DNA from: Collinsella ihumii
GTDB lineage: Bacteria > Actinomycetota > Coriobacteriia > Coriobacteriales > Coriobacteriaceae
Reading direction: 5' to 3'
Assembly (NCBI RefSeq): GCF_900046475.1
Contig: NZ_FCOU01000007.1
Location: 62,001-126,000, forward strand
DNA length: 64,000 nucleotides
Notes under the pieces: model-generated
Database searches by the model: none
Told to the model about the DNA's origin: nothing
Seen by the model: only the letters and a program-made list of their open reading frames with translations
In this document: piece after piece, positions 4,154-46,688 of the stretch
Position numbering within the stretch: position 1 is the stretch's first letter
Layout of the letters: the number at the start of each line of letters is the position of its first letter
Position numbers and translations under genes: made by a program

Positions 4154-4229
4154 GCCTCCGTAGCTCAGGGGATAGAGCACCGCTCTCCTAAAGCGGGTGT
4201 CGCCCGTTCGAATCGGGCCGGGGGCACCA
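4154..4229 (+). tRNA. tRNA-Arg (anticodon CCT)
   Basis: The 76-base cloverleaf has acceptor arms GCCTCCG and CGGGGGC, D-loop AGCTCAGGGGATAGAGC, anticodon stem CCGCT/AGCGG around CTCCTAA, T-arm GTTCGAATC, and an encoded CCA end. The anticodon CCT reads AGG. It sits at the left edge of the low-GC island, a usual position for integrated DNA. Confidence 0.97.
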
Positions 4230-4240
4230 GAATTATCGCA

Positions 4241-4279
4241 GGTCAGAAGTCATATTGGCTTCTGACCTGTTTGTTTTTT
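4241..4279 (+). terminator. Terminator after tRNA-Arg
   Basis: GGTCAGAAG (4241-4249) and CTTCTGACC (4259-4267) form a perfect 9-bp stem followed by TGTTTGTTTTTT. Confidence 0.85.
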
Positions 4280-4515
4280 CTGCCGGCTGGGTAAGAAGAG
4301 CGAAGGGTTATTCGATCGGTTTATCAAGACGGGGTCTTTGTATCGGTCGCCGACATGGGCGGAGCGCTTGTTTGCGATTATGCGTAAGGTCAAAAGACGC
4401 AAACCGTTAAGCAGTTGTATCTGCGCCTCCATCATTCCAAGTACAATGGTGCAGAGGGTTTATTATTTATTTACGAGAGTTTTTGTTTTCTCGCGGGCGT
4501 GTTGTTGGAAACATC
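4280..4515. other. AT-rich gap at the island edge
   Basis: No gene is supported here. Composition drops sharply compared with the preceding region. I looked for a second copy of the tRNA-Arg 3' end further right as an attachment site and did not find one by eye. Confidence 0.4.
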
Positions 4516-42046: not shown

Positions 42047-43012
42047 ATGCGCGTTGCGGCAGTTGATCTCGGTACCGTTTCCTCTCGATTGCTGCTGGCG
42101 CATGTTGAGGACGGCCGTATCGTCGAATCGACGAAGCTTACGCAGATCACGGATTTGGGGCAGGGGGTCGACGCGACCGGGTGCCTGAGCGATGCTGCCA
42201 TGCAGCGCGTGATCGATGCGTGCTCCGGGTTCGTGCGCGAGATCGGCGCGTTTGCGCCCGATGCCGTCTGCACGACGCTGACGAGCGCCGCGCGCGATGC
42301 GCAAAACGGCGACGTCCTCATCAAGGGCCTTCGCGGTCTGGGCCTGCATCCTCAGGTGATTCCCGGGGAGATCGAGGCGCGCCTGACGTTTTACGGCGTG
42401 GCGCATGATTTTCCCGAGCGCCGAATCGCGGTTGCCGACTCCGGCGGCGGTTCCACCGAGCTCGCCGTGGGAAGCTATGTGCCGGGACGTCCGCTTGAAC
42501 TCGAGCGGGTGCAATCGCTCAATATCGGATGCCGTCGCATCACCGATCGGTTCTTGGCGGGCAATCCTCCTGCGTCCTCCCAGCTCGAAGAAGCGAGCGC
42601 ATGGGCGGCCCAGCAGTTCTCCTCGTATTGGGACGAGGTCGGCGAGCGCCCCGACTGCCTTGTTGCCGTCGGCGGAACGGTGACGACGCTCGTGGCGATG
42701 GCGCATGAGCTCGCGGTGTACGATTCGGCGTTCGTGCATCTCCATGAGCTGACGACGGCGGACGTCGATGCATGCATCGACCTGATGCGCGTGCGTACGG
42801 TTGAAGAGATTGCCCAGCTGCCGGGCATCCAACCCAAGCGCGCCCCGGTGATGCTGGGCGGCGCTCTCATCATCCGCGAGGTGCTGCGAGCGGGAGGCTA
42901 TCGATCGTTGACGGTTAGCGAGAACAGCCTGCTGGTGGGTATGGCGACGACGGTGGCAGAGGTTTTGTCGGGCGAAGTTCCAGCAATCGGCTGGACGCCT
43001 GAGCTGTCGTGA
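42047..43012 (+). CDS. Ppx/GppA-type exopolyphosphatase or guanosine pentaphosphatase
   Basis: This 321-residue protein has the actin-like ATPase fold of the family: VAAVDLGTVSSRLLLA at the N-terminus, VIPGEIEARLTFYGV, IAVADSGGGSTELAVG and VAVGGTVTTLVAM. It is short compared with full Ppx (about 500), consistent with the two-domain actinobacterial form. It acts on polyphosphate or pppGpp; which cannot be told. It follows the DivIC-like gene after nine bases and probably shares its transcript. Confidence 0.92.
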   Translation: MRVAAVDLGTVSSRLLLAHVEDGRIVESTKLTQITDLGQGVDATGCLSDAAMQRVIDACSGFVREIGAFAPDAVCTTLTSAARDAQNGDVLIKGLRGLGLHPQVIPGEIEARLTFYGVAHDFPERRIAVADSGGGSTELAVGSYVPGRPLELERVQSLNIGCRRITDRFLAGNPPASSQLEEASAWAAQQFSSYWDEVGERPDCLVAVGGTVTTLVAMAHELAVYDSAFVHLHELTTADVDACIDLMRVRTVEEIAQLPGIQPKRAPVMLGGALIIREVLRAGGYRSLTVSENSLLVGMATTVAEVLSGEVPAIGWTPELS

Positions 43013-43029
43013 TACACTCTTCCCTTACG

Positions 43030-43114
43030 GGGGGCGTGGCGGAATTGGCATACGCAGGAGACTTAAAATCTTCGGCCGAAAGGATCGTGGGTTCGAGTCC
43101 CACCGCCCCTACCA
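43030..43114 (+). tRNA. tRNA-Leu (anticodon TAA)
   Basis: The 85-base tRNA has acceptor arms GGGGGCG/CGCCCCT, an anticodon stem GGAGA/TCTTC around CTTAAAA, a variable arm (GGCCGAAAGGATC), T-arm GGTTCGAGTCC and encoded CCA. The anticodon TAA reads TTA. Confidence 0.96.
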
Positions 43115-43123
43115 GCATGAACA

Positions 43124-43147
43124 GGGCCCCGTCGATGGGGCCCTTTT
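43124..43147 (+). terminator. Terminator after tRNA-Leu(TAA)
   Basis: GGGCCCC (43124-43130) and GGGGCCC (43137-43143), with a GTCGAT loop and TTTT. Confidence 0.85.
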
Positions 43148-43152
43148 GGTTT

Positions 43153-43290
43153 CGTGCCCGGTGCGGGGACTCGAACCGGGAGGTCGCGAGACTGAGGAAA
43201 CGCGCGAGCGTTTCCCAGCGAGCGCGCGAGGGCGGCGCAGCCGCCCGGAGCCGCGGACGCCGCAGGCGGACGCGAGTCCCACCGCCCCTA
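43153..43290. repeat. tRNA-Leu(TAA) tail element with antisense and sense T-arm copies
   Basis: After the tRNA terminator, GGGACTCGAACC at 43166-43177 is an exact 12-base antisense of the tRNA's own T-arm. A run of short GC-rich dyads follows (GCGCGCGAGGGCGGCGCAGC and on). It ends at 43273-43290 with CGAGTCCCACCGCCCCTA, an exact 18-base copy of the tRNA's 3' half. The 278-base gap to the next gene has no open frame of interest. Confidence 0.8.
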
Positions 43291-43326
43291 TCGGCACAAA
43301 TAGGTTTTCTGCATGAAAACAAAAAA

Positions 43327-43358
43327 GGCTGCGGCGAGAACATGGGGCCGCCGCAGCC
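43327..43358 (-). terminator. Terminator of the minus-strand TPR-like gene
   Basis: GGCTGCGGCG and CGCCGCAGCC form a 10-bp stem. On the minus strand a TTTTTTG run follows. Confidence 0.9.
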
Positions 43359-43392
43359 TCGATAGGGCTTATGAACCACGTATGGTGATAGG

Positions 43393-44037
43393 TTACTTCG
43401 CTTCGGTATCTCCGCCCATGGCCTCGCGCATGGCACGCGTGGAGCGGTTGAGGTACTCGTTGCGCTTCGCCATGTCGCCGCGGTTCTGGTATTGCAGCGC
43501 GAGCAGGTACTCCAGGCGGCCGCGCGCCGGGCCGGACATCTTGTCCAGGGCGCGTTCCATCTGGTCGATGTAGTTGCTCTTCTTGAGAATGGCGATGTCG
43601 TACATCATGCGGCAATCCTCTTTGGCGCTGCTGTACTTGGCGTCTTCGAGCTGATCGATCTCGTCGAGCATGGCCTTTGCCTTCTTGGCCTTGTTGAGGC
43701 TGATGTAGATGTTGAACGCCTTGACGACGAGGTCGGCGCGCTGCTCGGAGCTGGTCTTGCGCGACAGCAGATCGTCGAGGACGGTGTTCGCCGCCTTGTA
43801 GTCACCCTTCATCATGTACGCGTTGAGCTTGAAGTAGGTGCGGTTGTAGTCCGGATAGACCAGGCGGGTCATCGGCGAATCGATGCGCTTGAAGAACTCG
43901 TCGAACTTGCCCTGCTCGATCAGCCCCTCGAGCTTGGCGAACAGGGTGCGCTTGTTGATGGAGATGAACAGCGTGATGACGGCCAAAACGACGAACATCA
44001 CGATGGTGACAATCGTAAAGATCTGCAACGGGTCCAT
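43393..44037 (-). CDS. Membrane-anchored protein with helical repeats
   Basis: This 214-residue protein starts at ATG 44037 with GGAGGA upstream. One N-terminal helix (FTIVTIVMFVVLAVITLFIS) is followed by charged helical repeats that resemble TPR-type pairs (FDEFFKRIDSP, YFKLNAYMMKGDYKAANTVL, AFNIYISLNKAKKAKAML, MYDIAILKKSNYIDQMERAL). The open frame upstream to 45036 is not coding. Probably an inner-membrane scaffold facing the cytoplasm. No enzymatic motif is seen and function is unknown. Confidence 0.8.
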   Translation of the reverse strand: MDPLQIFTIVTIVMFVVLAVITLFISINKRTLFAKLEGLIEQGKFDEFFKRIDSPMTRLVYPDYNRTYFKLNAYMMKGDYKAANTVLDDLLSRKTSSEQRADLVVKAFNIYISLNKAKKAKAMLDEIDQLEDAKYSSAKEDCRMMYDIAILKKSNYIDQMERALDKMSGPARGRLEYLLALQYQNRGDMAKRNEYLNRSTRAMREAMGGDTEAK

Positions 44038-44202
44038 AGGGTCCTCCAGAGATTGCGCGCCGGCCGTGCGGGCCCGTCGCGGTGAAGTGCAGAGGGTATT
44101 ATCCCGCAAACCGATGCACGGTGTACAGTGGGAGAAGTTCTCCAGGTGCCGCCCGTCTTGTTGCGTACCATGGGCTTTGAACGTGAGCGATAGGGAGGGC
44201 GC

Positions 44203-44487
44203 ATGAAGAAAATCGTCGTAGCGTGCGGTACGGGAATCGTGACATCGGCCATCGTCGCGGGATATATCGGTGACCTGCTGGACGCCCATGGGTACGCAGG
44301 CCACTACGAAATCGTGCGCTGTTCCATGGCAGAGGCCCCCGATCAGTGCGAAAACGCGGACGTTTTGGTTGCAACGACCATTGCCCCCAAGGGTATAACC
44401 TGTGACTATATCAGTGGCGTTCCCGTGCTGACCGGCAAGGGCCGCGCCGACACCGAGAAACAGATTCTGGACCTCATGGGCGCGTAG
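44203..44487 (+). CDS. PTS galactitol-type EIIB component, orphan
   Basis: This 94-residue protein is a stand-alone EIIB of the GatB family: VVACGTGIVTSAIVAGYI contains the phosphorylated cysteine in a P-loop-like start (Cys9), then VATTIAPKGIT and VPVLTGKGRADTEKQILDLM. Neither EIIA nor EIIC lies nearby, so it either joins a distant permease or has a regulatory role. GGAGGG precedes the ATG. The neighbours are a VOC protein and tRNAs. Confidence 0.88.
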   Translation: MKKIVVACGTGIVTSAIVAGYIGDLLDAHGYAGHYEIVRCSMAEAPDQCENADVLVATTIAPKGITCDYISGVPVLTGKGRADTEKQILDLMGA

Positions 44488-44523
44488 CGCCTTTGGCGTG
44501 CGGAGCGAGGAGAGGAGCAAACC

Positions 44524-44901
44524 ATGGCAGAGGTAAACGAGAACCCGGTAGAGCTGTTTGACATGTACGTCGCCCACGTGGGCATCAACGCGACGGACCC
44601 CGATGACGCGAAGGCCATCTCCAGCGAGTTCGGCAGGCTCATGGGCTTCACGGAGTACGACACCCCCGTGTCCCTGTTCGCCGATACGCTGGTCGAGGTC
44701 ATGAAGCAGAACGGTCGCGGCACCAAGGGACACATCGGTTTCCATGTGAACGATATGCCGGCGGCCGAGAAGTGGTTTTCCGATCGCGGGTTCGAGCTGA
44801 ATGAGGATTCGCGTGCGCTCAACCCGGACGGCTCGACGCGCCTGGTGTACTTCAAGCAGGAAATCGGCGGTTTTGCCATTCATCTGACGTCCGATAAGTA
44901 G
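44524..44901 (+). CDS. VOC-family (glyoxalase-like) protein
   Basis: This 125-residue protein has the paired beta-alpha-beta-beta-beta plan of the VOC fold: YVAHVGINATDPDDAKAISSE and HIGFHVNDMPAAEKWFSDRGFEL, with EIGGFAIHL at the end. Metal ligands of the family (His22 and His75 by position, and a late His) are plausible. Similar VOC domains follow KDPG aldolases in some gut bacteria, so a sugar-acid role is possible but not shown. GAGGAGAGG precedes the ATG. Confidence 0.82.
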   Translation: MAEVNENPVELFDMYVAHVGINATDPDDAKAISSEFGRLMGFTEYDTPVSLFADTLVEVMKQNGRGTKGHIGFHVNDMPAAEKWFSDRGFELNEDSRALNPDGSTRLVYFKQEIGGFAIHLTSDK

Positions 44902-44939
44902 GGCCGTTCGCGCGGGACAAGAGATTTCGAAAAAATCTC

Positions 44940-44967
44940 TTGCACTCGTCGTGAGTTTTGCTAAGAT
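44940..44967 (+). promoter_or_regulatory. Promoter of tRNA-Leu(CAG)
   Basis: TTGCAC (44940-44945) and TAAGAT (44962-44967) are 16 bases apart, ending 10 bases before the tRNA. Confidence 0.65.
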
Positions 44968-44977
44968 AAAACGGCAC

Positions 44978-45064
44978 GCGGGCGTGGCGGAATTGGCAGA
45001 CGCGTATGGTTCAGGTCCATATGGGGGCAACCCCATGAAGGTTCAAGTCCTTTCGCCCGCACCA
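44978..45064 (+). tRNA. tRNA-Leu (anticodon CAG)
   Basis: The 87-base tRNA has acceptor arms GCGGGCG/CGCCCGC, anticodon stem TATGG/CCATA around TTCAGGT, a long variable arm, T-arm GGTTCAAGTCC and encoded CCA. The anticodon CAG reads CTG. Confidence 0.97.
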
Positions 45065-45073
45065 TTGAATGTT

Positions 45074-45102
45074 AAGGGTTCCAGAAATGGAACCCTTTTT
45101 TC
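45074..45102 (+). terminator. Terminator after tRNA-Leu(CAG)
   Basis: AAGGGTTCC and GGAACCCTT pair over a six-base loop, followed by TTTTT. An identical second copy of this terminator lies at 45259-45287 in the duplicated segment. Confidence 0.9.
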
Positions 45103-45103
45103 G

Positions 45104-45295
45104 TTCGGGCACCTTGCAGGGACTTGAACCTGGGAAGGCGCGGAGCGGAGCCAACGGCGCGAGCCGTTGGCCGCGGAGCGCGCAAGGCGCCGAAGGCGCC
45201 GCAGCGATTGCGTCGCGCACGCGACGCGCAAGTCCTTTCGCCCGCACCATTGAATGTTAAGGGTTCCAGAAATGGAACCCTTTTTTCGTTCGGGC
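45104..45295. repeat. tRNA-Leu(CAG) tail element and 67-bp direct repeat
   Basis: GGACTTGAACCT at 45120-45131 is an exact antisense of this tRNA's T-arm (AGGTTCAAGTCC), including the A that differs from the other tRNA-Leu. GC-rich dyads follow. The segment 45229-45295 repeats 45044-45110 exactly, comprising the tRNA 3' end with CCA plus its terminator. Confidence 0.85.
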
Positions 45296-45301
45296 CCCTG
45301 C

Positions 45302-45428
45302 GATGGGTTGTTTGGGGACGGGTTCGTTTCAACCCATGGATTCGGGCAAGGCGCAGGACCTCAGGGTGAACGGTCGTGTCGTTTCGGCCGCAATGGGTTG
45401 AAACGAACCCGTCCCCAAACAACCCATC
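45302..45428. repeat. Inverted-repeat element with perfect 36-bp arms
   Basis: Bases 45302-45337 (GATGGGTTGTTTGGGGACG onward) are the exact reverse complement of 45393-45428. The 55-base centre shows no feature. Directly after it lies a fragment of the GGGAACC family (GCGAAAGCAATGGATCGG at about 45452). Confidence 0.92.
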
Positions 45429-45527
45429 GGACAGGCCTCTCTCGGCACGCGAAAGCAATGGATCGGTGGTTCCCCAGCTTCTCGATTGGGGTACAAGGCG
45501 GGTAGTGCGAGTCTGTGGGGGAGAGGT

Positions 45528-46688
45528 ATGCCTACACTGTTCGACTATCTGGAAACGGAGCAAGCGACCTTCGACGAAAAGCCGTTCGGACCGCTCGATT
45601 CTGCAGTGCTTTCCCAGCTGAGCATGGTCGATTTCGGTGACGTCGTGGCTCCTCCACCGACTCCCTCGAGCGGTGTCCTTCGCCGTTTGACGTCCGTGCT
45701 GCTGCCCGCCGCATCGCCGGTGCGGCTCGGCGATGCGGCCCATGTGGCGGATCGCGATGATAAGGTCACGGGCCTTGTCCCCGAAGACATCAGGCGCTGT
45801 CTTGTTGTCGGGGGTACCAGCCGCCGCTTCGGCGGTCTTGAGCTGCGCTATTACCGCAGCGTGTTCGATGAGTCCTCCCATACGCAGTTTGCCGCGTGCA
45901 CGTTCGTGTGGCGCGATGCGTTTGCGTACGTCGGCTTTCGGGGGACCGATGTCTCGTTTACCGGGTGGCGCGAGAACCTCGACATGGCGTATCGGCCCCA
46001 GGTCGCCGCGCAGAACCTCGCGAGGGCGTACCTGGAGGAGGTGGCGCCCTACCTTCCGCGTCGCCTGCATATCGGCGGCCACTCAAAAGGAGGCAATCTT
46101 GCGCTGTATGCGGCGCTGACCTGCTCGGATGCAACGAGGGGTCGCATCGAGCACGTGTGGAGCCACGATGCGCCGGGGTTCAAGCGCGGCCTGTTTTCGG
46201 AGGAGGATTTCGCACCGCTCGACGGGCGCATCCATCGGACGGTTCCGCAGGATTCCATTGTCGGGATGCTGCTGGACTGCCCCGTGGAGCCGCATGTGGT
46301 ATCCAGCACCGCGGTCGGTATCGACCAGCACAACGTCTTCTCTTGGGAAATCGCCGGAGACGACTTCGCCTACCGCGACTCGCTGAGTGATGTTTCCCGC
46401 GCCGTGCGCGACATCTCTGCGGAATGGCTTGCACATGTCGGCGAGGCGCGCATGGAGCGCATCGCCGACGCGGTCTGGGCGGCTGTCGAGGCAAGCGGCG
46501 CCAAAGACATGCGCGACGTGCTGGCGGGAGGCGCGCAGTGGTTCCGCCAGCTGGTCGAGGCGTCGCGCCGTCTCGATCAGGAATCGAGCGGCATCATCCG
46601 CGAGGCGCTCGGAGACCTTCTCAACGTCGCCATGAGGTACGTGGGGCGCGACGCGCTCTCTTCGATTGCGTGGATGATGTGGGAGTAG
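45528..46688 (+). CDS. DUF2974 (Mbeg1-like) alpha/beta hydrolase
   Basis: This 386-residue protein starts at ATG 45528 after GGGAGAGG. It has the catalytic serine in IGGHSKGGNLALYAAL, preceded by FAYVGFRGTDVSFTGWRENLDMAY and followed by HDAPGFKRG. These are typical of the Mbeg1-like (DUF2974) lipase-like family, usually cytoplasmic with unknown substrates. The C-terminal third is helical. There is no signal peptide. It stands between an inverted-repeat element and a GT51 gene. Confidence 0.9.
   Translation: MPTLFDYLETEQATFDEKPFGPLDSAVLSQLSMVDFGDVVAPPPTPSSGVLRRLTSVLLPAASPVRLGDAAHVADRDDKVTGLVPEDIRRCLVVGGTSRRFGGLELRYYRSVFDESSHTQFAACTFVWRDAFAYVGFRGTDVSFTGWRENLDMAYRPQVAAQNLARAYLEEVAPYLPRRLHIGGHSKGGNLALYAALTCSDATRGRIEHVWSHDAPGFKRGLFSEEDFAPLDGRIHRTVPQDSIVGMLLDCPVEPHVVSSTAVGIDQHNVFSWEIAGDDFAYRDSLSDVSRAVRDISAEWLAHVGEARMERIADAVWAAVEASGAKDMRDVLAGGAQWFRQLVEASRRLDQESSGIIREALGDLLNVAMRYVGRDALSSIAWMMWE

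Follow-up and report, generated by a model that had tools for sequence, protein, structure and literature searches.

Two tRNA-Leu genes in a stretch of 64,000 nucleotides (nt) from the genome of Collinsella ihumii (contig NZ_FCOU01000007.1, positions 62,001 to 126,000; here referred to as "the window") are each followed by a gene-less unit of ~185 bp with a characteristic plan. The unit consists of the tRNA sequence from nt 59 to the CCA end, a terminator, an antisense T-arm, and a ~95-nt core in a five-way junction; a further copy of the tRNA 3' end comes after the core. We tentatively favor the reading that these tails are a family of miniature, gene-less insertions, mainly selfish, that would rebuild the T-arm genes they enter. 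This reading draws on the layout of the units, their covarying fold, the tracking of each host tRNA by the arms beside it, the sharing of cores between tRNA types, whole-unit differences between species, and the position of a distal terminator at two loci. From these observations, we infer insertion rather than the rearrangement of old arrays, and a mainly selfish nature.

In the folds of this genome's units, which show some variation, a closing helix (P1) joins the antisense arm to the sense copy. The remainder of the antisense arm provides the 5' strand of a small hairpin (P2), which is followed by larger hairpins (P3–P5). The two units in the window have the following features:

43030-43114, + strand: tRNA-Leu(UAA) gene, host of unit 1, with its T-arm at 43087-43103 (ARAGORN; RF00005, 54.2 bits).
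43115-43159, + strand: tRNA-proximal, terminator-like hairpin of unit 1 (GGGCCCCGTCGATGGGGCCC, then TTTT) and spacer, read by eye.
43166-43177, + strand: antisense T-arm of unit 1 (GGGACTCGAACC), the exact reverse complement of 43090-43101; in the folds, 43166-43172 is the P1 5' strand and 43175-43177 the P2 5' strand.
43178-43273, + strand: core of unit 1, with the P2 3' strand at 43182-43184, P3 at 43185-43224, P4 at 43226-43251, and P5 at 43253-43273 (minimum free energy fold, letters checked, and covariation over 73 distinct aligned units).
43273-43290, + strand: sense copy of the tRNA-Leu(UAA) 3' end, 18 bases, an exact repeat of 43094-43111; it contains the P1 3' strand (43274-43280, + strand).
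44978-45064, + strand: tRNA-Leu(CAG) gene, host of unit 2, with its T-arm at 45037-45053 (ARAGORN; RF00005, 51.7 bits).
45044-45110, + strand: proximal copy of a 67-base direct repeat, from the T-loop to behind the terminator; this is the longest exact direct repeat.
45120-45131, + strand: antisense T-arm of unit 2 (GGACTTGAACCT), the exact reverse complement of 45039-45050, lying within the P1 5' strand (45116-45126) and the P2 5' strand (45129-45131).
45132-45228, + strand: core of unit 2, with the P2 3' strand at 45136-45138, P3 at 45139-45180, P4 at 45181-45206, and P5 at 45209-45228 (minimum free energy fold, letters checked).
45229-45295, + strand: distal copy of the 67-base repeat, i.e., the sense copy of the tRNA 3' end and a second terminator, with the P1 3' strand at 45229-45237.

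The original prediction for this DNA described exact 12-base antisense T-arm copies behind both tRNA-Leu genes, followed by GC-rich dyads and then by sense copies of each tRNA's own 3' end (18 bases, and 67 bases including the terminator). The coordinates and letters given are correct, and the dyads and sense copies are confirmed, the latter as exact repeats. With at most one mismatch, the 12-mer GGGACTTGAACC occurs four times in the window (in the two tRNAs and the two antisense copies), compared with 0.19 expected, and none of 100 shuffles reached four copies. These shuffles, together with the bimodal distribution of unit scores over all 52 tRNA genes of the genome, rule out a chance origin of the tails. 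Of the three tRNA genes that ARAGORN detects in the window, the remaining one, a tRNA-Arg at 4154-4229, has no such tail.

The genome that carries the window is 2.84 Mb in size, and its 52 tRNA genes, taken from a search with RF00005, were each read with their downstream DNA. Units stand behind 12 of the 52, about a quarter: Leu UAA, Leu CAG, Ala UGC, Ala GGC (one of two genes), Ala CGC, Thr UGU, Lys CUU (the last gene in a cluster), Val UAC, Ser GCU, Gly CCC, Glu UUC, and Gln UUG. At the other 40 loci, neither arm is found at the expected place, except for matches belonging to cluster neighbors. The spacing from the tRNA is narrow, with the antisense arm starting at 51–61 nt and the sense copy at 159–177 nt across the 12 loci. 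A second, partly degenerate unit is present at the Lys, Val, and Ser loci, and tandem units occur in L021, L026, and L028 (handles beginning with L and G denote loci and genomes, respectively).

A covariance model built from the genome's 12 units (R1) matched 22 of 23 congeners, with 2–19 matches each, and 1 of 15 genomes of other genera; since scoring was limited to the 85 best first-look candidates of each genome, these counts may be low. R1 also matches unit 2 of the window (45113-45245, 100.5 bits), which is itself one of the model's founding sequences. The original prediction had named segments lying away from tRNAs, with no match to the nearest one, as counterevidence. Instead, all of the first 30 loci returned have a same-strand tRNA upstream of the unit, in one case (L047) with another unit between. 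Among 10 further R1-matched loci, which lie outside the parsed set and were inspected individually, eight units lie by a tRNA, a transfer-messenger RNA (tmRNA), or a tRNA remnant, one lies at a contig edge (L219), and for one (L199) the stretch contains no tRNA. Three of these ten (L196, L214, and L226) are the same places as L065, L047, and L062 and had been counted already. L224 has a tRNA-Lys upstream and a degenerate sense copy, and the unit of L193 is preceded by an apparent truncated tRNA-Lys. At ~400-820 in L223, a displaced tRNA-Gly 3' end lies beside phage-like DNA and is followed by a unit; the arrangement resembles a prophage attachment site whose distal side has kept the unit.

The set of tRNA genes with units varies between species; for example, a unit follows tRNA-Phe(GAA) in ten congeners and is absent there in this genome. 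In the genus set, 124 tRNA loci were parsed, and 72 had a unit by our thresholds, or 70 after removal of two double-counted Lys rows; 70 of 124 is not a frequency, because the stretches from relatives were selected through R1 matches. Two units are hosted by tmRNA genes, identified with RF00023: L204 (643-781, − strand; G021) and L215 (712-853; G016). In both, the antisense arm is a 19-nt reverse complement of the T-arm of its own tmRNA, including both halves of the stem.

Variation among units supports the fold. In an alignment of 73 distinct units, which was fitted to the R1 model and includes its 12 founding sequences, 24 of 28 pairs show changes on both sides. Overall, 91.9% of the cells in paired positions are paired, compared with 75.8% after shuffling (none of 500 shuffles reached the observed value) and 36–48% when partners were slid. 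For P1, 89.3% of cells are paired, and four of five pairs show changes on both sides. Relative to shuffled sequences, the fold of the + strand is lower in energy than that of the − strand, beyond the effect of composition, for 64 of 68 units from the genus and 29 of 39 from elsewhere. The tRNA strand is, therefore, probably the folding strand; RNA and single-stranded DNA forms of the fold are indistinguishable here. Architectures inside the closing helix differ among more distant units, with three long hairpins and no P2 in Oscillospiraceae units (L116, L121, and L181), and a nested branch in Spirochaete units (L104 and L174).

The arms of the units follow the tRNA beside them, as had been proposed from the two window loci. 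Each of 27 tRNA variants (from 20 isoacceptors, so not all independent) was represented by one unit, and the tRNA labels were shuffled for comparison. At five variable positions of the T-loop and stem, the antisense arm matches its own tRNA at 0.978, compared with 0.786 for shuffled labels, although the former figure is slightly biased because the search for units relied in part on loose matching to their own antisense 10-mer (all ten positions of which are matched in 63 of 70 units). The outer side also tracks the host (0.487 versus 0.331), as do four positions on the 5' side of the T-stem (0.659 versus 0.533), which played no part in finding units; none of 2000 shuffles reached the observed value in any of the three comparisons. 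Single positions of the 5' T-stem give weaker signals, equaled in 72, 6, 19, and 217 of 2000 shuffles. Pairing of the antisense arm with the sense copy in the closing helix P1 also accounts for much of the tracking. It cannot account for the tracking on the 5' T-stem side, because that side of the stem is absent from the sense copy.

An antisense arm covering the full T-arm, as in the tmRNA-hosted units, is also found at tRNA-Leu(CAA). Exceptions to the tracking are the arms at tRNA-Thr(UGU) and tRNA-Ser(GCU), which each deviate by one base, giving a G.U pair with the copy. The antisense 12-mer differs between units, rather than being the one fixed sequence that had been named as a point against the idea. 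Both explanations originally offered for the matching, i.e., repeated local copying and selection for pairing, may be compatible with the data. In the sense copy, mean identity to the tRNA over isoacceptors is 0.07 at nt 55, 0.50 at nt 56, 0.77 at nt 57/58, and 1.00 at nt 59 (70 units). As agreement is full from nt 59, we read this position as the insertion point.

The original prediction was right that the arms match the neighboring tRNA and wrong that no described element has this plan. E. coli rtT/RttR (RF00391), currently annotated as an RNA of the tyrT operon, has it. Behind tyrT/tyrV of E. coli K-12 lie 178-base units made up of GGGGAAGGAT, antisense to the tRNA tail, then dyads, then ATCCTTCCCCCACCACCA, the sense tail. 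In one copy, GGGGAAGGAT is followed by GAACCTTCG, the complement of the 5' side of the T-stem. Thus, like the units described here, rtT stands behind a tRNA gene, combines an antisense tail with dyads and a sense copy of the tRNA 3' end, and occurs in tandem in variable number, and a closing helix of antisense and sense tails is held in the Rfam RtT model. The two differ in that rtT follows only tRNA-Tyr in the locus read and in that the window units are preceded by a terminator-like hairpin. The RtT covariance model finds four matches in the E. coli locus used as a control (L045; 132.9–137.5 bits) and none in the region of the window units (42700-45700), even at E≤1, such that membership of the window units in RF00391 is rejected by this test; conversely, R1 has no match in the E. 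coli rtT locus. Because neither model matches the other's units, the plan is the same and common descent is unproven. At near identity, rtT is present in 4655 of 5426 E. coli genomes, at 1–9 places, with 771 lacking it in this near search; one strain has six units in tandem.

Several reports bear on rtT and its relatives. One study describes E. coli rtT as an RNA released from the tRNA transcript with an effect on the stringent response, and reports Northern signals for RtT-family RNAs by the tRNA-Asn and tRNA-Lys genes of Actinobacillus pleuropneumoniae (PMC4986893). These RNAs, which are RtT family members by Rfam, resemble the present units in lying beside other tRNA genes, but they are placed upstream of those genes, and in the parts available, the account does not treat per-tRNA matching of arms, mobility, or other phyla (PMC4986893). 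Some bacterial interspersed mosaic elements (BIMEs) were reported to resemble rtT (PMC2965389). BIMEs and repetitive extragenic palindromic (REP) sequences are likewise folded repeats in many copies; by contrast, the present units stand behind T-arm genes or their remnants (except in L199 and at one contig edge), in one orientation, and with arms matched to the host. In the open-licence literature searched, we found no paper on arms matched to each tRNA, and the accessible part of PMC8040213 contains no such units.

The main alternative to insertion is that the tails function for the host as regulatory RNA, in the manner of rtT. Read-through past the terminator would let the antisense arm capture the T-arm of its own tRNA; in this model, the copy of the 3' end would replace the acceptor 3' strand, and the read-through tRNA would be disabled or decayed, with terminated transcripts giving good tRNA. 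Predicted equilibrium folds of tRNA plus tail agree with such a switch: the partner of the antisense arm is the tRNA in 65 of 70 units and the copy in two, and the longest helix averages 14.2 with the tRNA and 7.8 with the copy. The tracking on the 5' T-stem side, which P1 leaves unexplained, and the full T-arm antisense at tmRNA and tRNA-Leu(CAA) also point this way, as do the description of E. coli rtT as an RNA and the Northern signals from Actinobacillus (PMC4986893). However, any long, perfect antisense would trivially produce the computed switch, and the computation ignores the fact that the tRNA folds before the tail is made. Units are absent from most tRNA loci of this genome, their hosts vary by species, one congener has no R1 match, many E. 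coli genomes lack rtT in the near search, and a terminator-like hairpin lies between the tRNA and the unit. On balance, we consider a regulatory role to be rather unlikely as the explanation for the tails.

Cores are shared between tRNA types. For 34 of 70 cores, the nearest relative in another genome lies at a different tRNA type, and 48 pairs of units at different tRNA types have 88–97% core identity; these pairs come mostly from a few core families and are not independent. Within the pairs, 95 of 96 comparisons show a better fit of the 3'-end copy to its own tRNA, with one tie; for the antisense 12-mer, the number is 85 of 96, with seven ties. An example comes from G016, where the cores at tRNA-Ala(UGC) and tRNA-Arg(CCU) are 95% alike and the 18-base tails fit the other tRNA at only 8 of 18 positions. 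Judged from these sequences, it would be the core that moves between tRNA types, with the arms staying or becoming local.

Sharing of this kind also bears on a second alternative, in which the tails are passive remains: old tandem duplications of tRNA 3' ends, immobile and functionless, homogenized by gene conversion among their direct and inverted copies (quasi-palindrome correction). Tandem units, both in the genus and in the E. coli strain with six, would be natural products of such a history, as would the unit-sized differences between species and the similarity of proximal and distal terminator regions, which are ≥90% identical in 36 of 70 units. Passive duplication leaves unexplained the covariation of P2–P5 and the + strand fold preference, and it does not account for homologous cores at different tRNAs and tmRNA or for the same plan in other phyla. 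We regard it as improbable.

Comparisons of species indicate that units are gained or lost whole. At tRNA-Leu(UAA), closely related species differ by an entire unit and have the same right flank (L288 versus L289/L295, and L303 versus L301/L305; read by eye); for these differences, loss by recombination between the flanking repeats is a sufficient explanation. A unit is present at tRNA-Arg(CCU) in G013, G016, and G021, and an apparent stub in G047, while G000, G008, G056, G055, G045, and G044 have other terminators and no unit. At tRNA-Ala(UGC), where G016 has the transferred core, a unit of another type, complete or truncated, is present in G000, G008, G013, and G047, and no unit is present in G021.

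At two loci of G000, tRNA-Thr(UGU) and tRNA-Gln(UUG), one terminator adjoins the tRNA, and another, of the CAGGTCAGA type, is distal. Terminators of the CAGGTCAGA/CAGGCCAGA type stand directly behind the tRNA in some relatives without a unit (L369 and L379 for Thr; L391 and L399 for Gln). Displacement of an older 3' end and terminator to the distal side fits these two G000 loci when they are set against a few unit-less relatives, a comparison with no polarity from a tree. A search for exact copies of the tail, which misses altered copies, covered 30 loci out of 42 genomes for each of the two tRNAs and found eight with such a copy for Thr and eight for Gln. Separately, the CAGGTCAGA-type terminator is common to several tRNA loci, including window 4230-4290, L011, L014, and L041 (Arg CCU, Gly UCC, and distal Thr/Gln), as if terminators were themselves spreading between tRNA genes.

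Under the insertion reading, the targets would be genes that end in a T-arm, i.e., tRNA and tmRNA genes, and the entry point would be in the T-loop, between nt 58 and 59. The incoming unit would bring a replacement for nt 59–76 together with a terminator, so that the host tRNA would be kept intact; the antisense T-arm and the five-way-junction core would follow, and the displaced older 3' end would become distal. Gain and loss would occur in whole-unit steps, and arrays could form. Between tRNA types, the core would move, and the arms would remain or turn local. The fold on the tRNA strand, as RNA or single-stranded DNA, would be under selection, with the structure maintained for the units' own spread. 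The agent might be an unknown recombinase or homologous recombination.

The plan extends beyond the genus. We scanned a collection of genome contigs (genome_contigs) with an exact pattern for one common T-arm (the antisense arm, 90–120 bases, and the sense end), which gave at least 116 stretches. Among the matches listed, at least 32 stretches have a same-strand tRNA ≤250 nt upstream that does not overlap the pattern, at least 66 are tRNA genes overlapping the pattern, and at least 19 lack such a tRNA, some being tandem units by eye; one stretch falls into two classes. The 32 stretches hold at least 35 units among the matches listed, 34 of which start 20–70 nt behind the tRNA and one at 243 nt. 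In 27 of these 35 units, at least nine of the ten own-tRNA bases that follow the search pattern are copied, compared with 44 of 1014 comparisons with other tRNAs. The units among the matches listed come from Actinomycetota (mostly Coriobacteriia), Bacillota, Spirochaetota, a Campbellbacteria bin, an unclassified bin, and a bin labeled as archaeal; many of the unit-bearing stretches beyond the genus are metagenome bins. Named Collinsella and Enorma records have the same pattern. Of 296 Actinomycetota genomes, 11 matched, and the 15 matches comprise eight units, all in this genus and family, five tRNA-overlapping matches, and two undecided cases. A bacteria-wide class of gene-less mobile units that enter the T-loop of tRNA and tmRNA genes at nt 58/59, with arms re-templated from each new host gene, a shared core, and rtT as its one named member, is conceivable, though we hold it to be doubtful. 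Two individual stretches deserve mention: L099 (508 bases, from an Akkermansia bin) holds two tandem units and no tRNA, and at 7674-7796 in L177, a unit stands behind a tRNA-Leu in a bin labeled Thermoplasmatota (archaea), which could be contamination.

Integrative elements and genomic islands that insert at tRNA 3' ends rebuild the end of the tRNA and leave a distal direct repeat. The present units are similar in that the tRNA 3' end is directly repeated from a point within the gene, with full identity from nt 59; they differ in being ~185 bp long and gene-less, with a folded core and an antisense T-arm. The tails might be degenerate attachment scars of such elements or of prophages, with attL and attR remaining after internal deletion of an island. 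The T-loop start of the repeat, the second 3' end on the distal side, and the presence of probable real islands at the same kind of gene are in keeping with this idea. Scars, however, would not be expected to share a similar size, a conserved folded core, and an antisense arm at 20 isoacceptors and tmRNA, and none of 46 pattern matches in viral contigs is a unit, which makes an origin as scars very unlikely. The probable islands are seen as 46-nt 3' fragments of tRNA-Gln lying ~4–6 kb from the gene (G055:C2:372403-376572 and G022:C33:295-6601), which are probably ordinary integrated elements at the same tRNA. The units as phage cargo are likewise unsupported: besides the viral contigs, 50,697 phage records contain no match to window unit 1 or to the E. 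coli unit.

A number of observations weigh against the insertion reading. No recombinase or transposase is tied to the units, although no search was made for one, whether beside the units or at a distance; the ~185 bp of the unit itself are filled by the tail copy, terminator, antisense arm, and core and encode no site-specific recombinase. Excision products were not observed, and as the viral and phage scans returned no units, no vehicle is known. Clean losses can arise from homologous recombination between flanking direct repeats, and gain is unpolarized with respect to loss, because a tree based on one flanking gene kept 5 of 10 genomes and was not used. The distal-terminator case rests on few loci, because most other unit-less Thr and Gln loci have yet other types of terminator. 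The proximal terminators of Thr units appear alike across species; therefore, a unit changing tRNA type would need to exchange its tail too.

Core sharing could reflect gene conversion between pre-existing units, and the exchange of cores at tRNA-Ala(UGC) fits gene conversion as well as it fits a new insertion. Conversion within a pre-existing unit could refit a core without new chemistry, but it would require a first unit for each tRNA type; how a core is refitted with the arms of a new tRNA is accounted for by none of the present results. In the core-sharing pairs, 4 of 96 antisense comparisons favor the other tRNA, and at tRNA-Leu(UAA) of G045 (L284), the antisense arm is of another type and misfits its own tRNA-Leu. 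Of the two tmRNA units, only L215 has a copy of the tmRNA tail at its end. Finally, counts of G.T versus A.C mismatches in stems (4 versus 10 in the genus set, and 4 versus 2 elsewhere) give no support for folding of the + strand, and the genus count leans against it; this count being uninformative, we prefer the comparison of fold energies with shuffled sequences.

What was already known is one E. coli example, rtT, and the same plan is found here behind tRNA genes in several other bacterial groups. If units of this plan follow dozens of tRNA types and tmRNA across several phyla, with arms fitted to the host gene in each case, the 3' flanks of tRNA genes house an overlooked family of structured elements. 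Such a family would provide a ready test system for the way in which a repeat takes up sequence from its target, and its members could be mistaken for genomic-island scars in tRNA-based searches for islands. It also raises the testable possibility that read-through beyond a tRNA terminator refolds the tRNA.

Searches for known RNA families gave no other identification of the tails. At positions 42700-45700 of the window (E≤1), Rfam returned the two tRNAs and two microRNA-family matches below gathering scores, with no RtT. Six loci from the genus gave nothing for the units at gathering score except tmRNA, and in eight loci from elsewhere, everything that reached gathering score was a tRNA or a signal recognition particle RNA. 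The Rfam matches that touch tails (sX4 in L104 and a microRNA family in L121) are far below gathering scores. Directly 3' of unit 2, at 45301-45429 of the window, lies a long inverted repeat (GATGGGTTGTTTGGGGACGGGTTCG ...). It matches MIR5998 and MIR5565 far below their gathering scores, and these matches are probably spurious. A similar inverted repeat stands behind tRNAs in L014 and L036.

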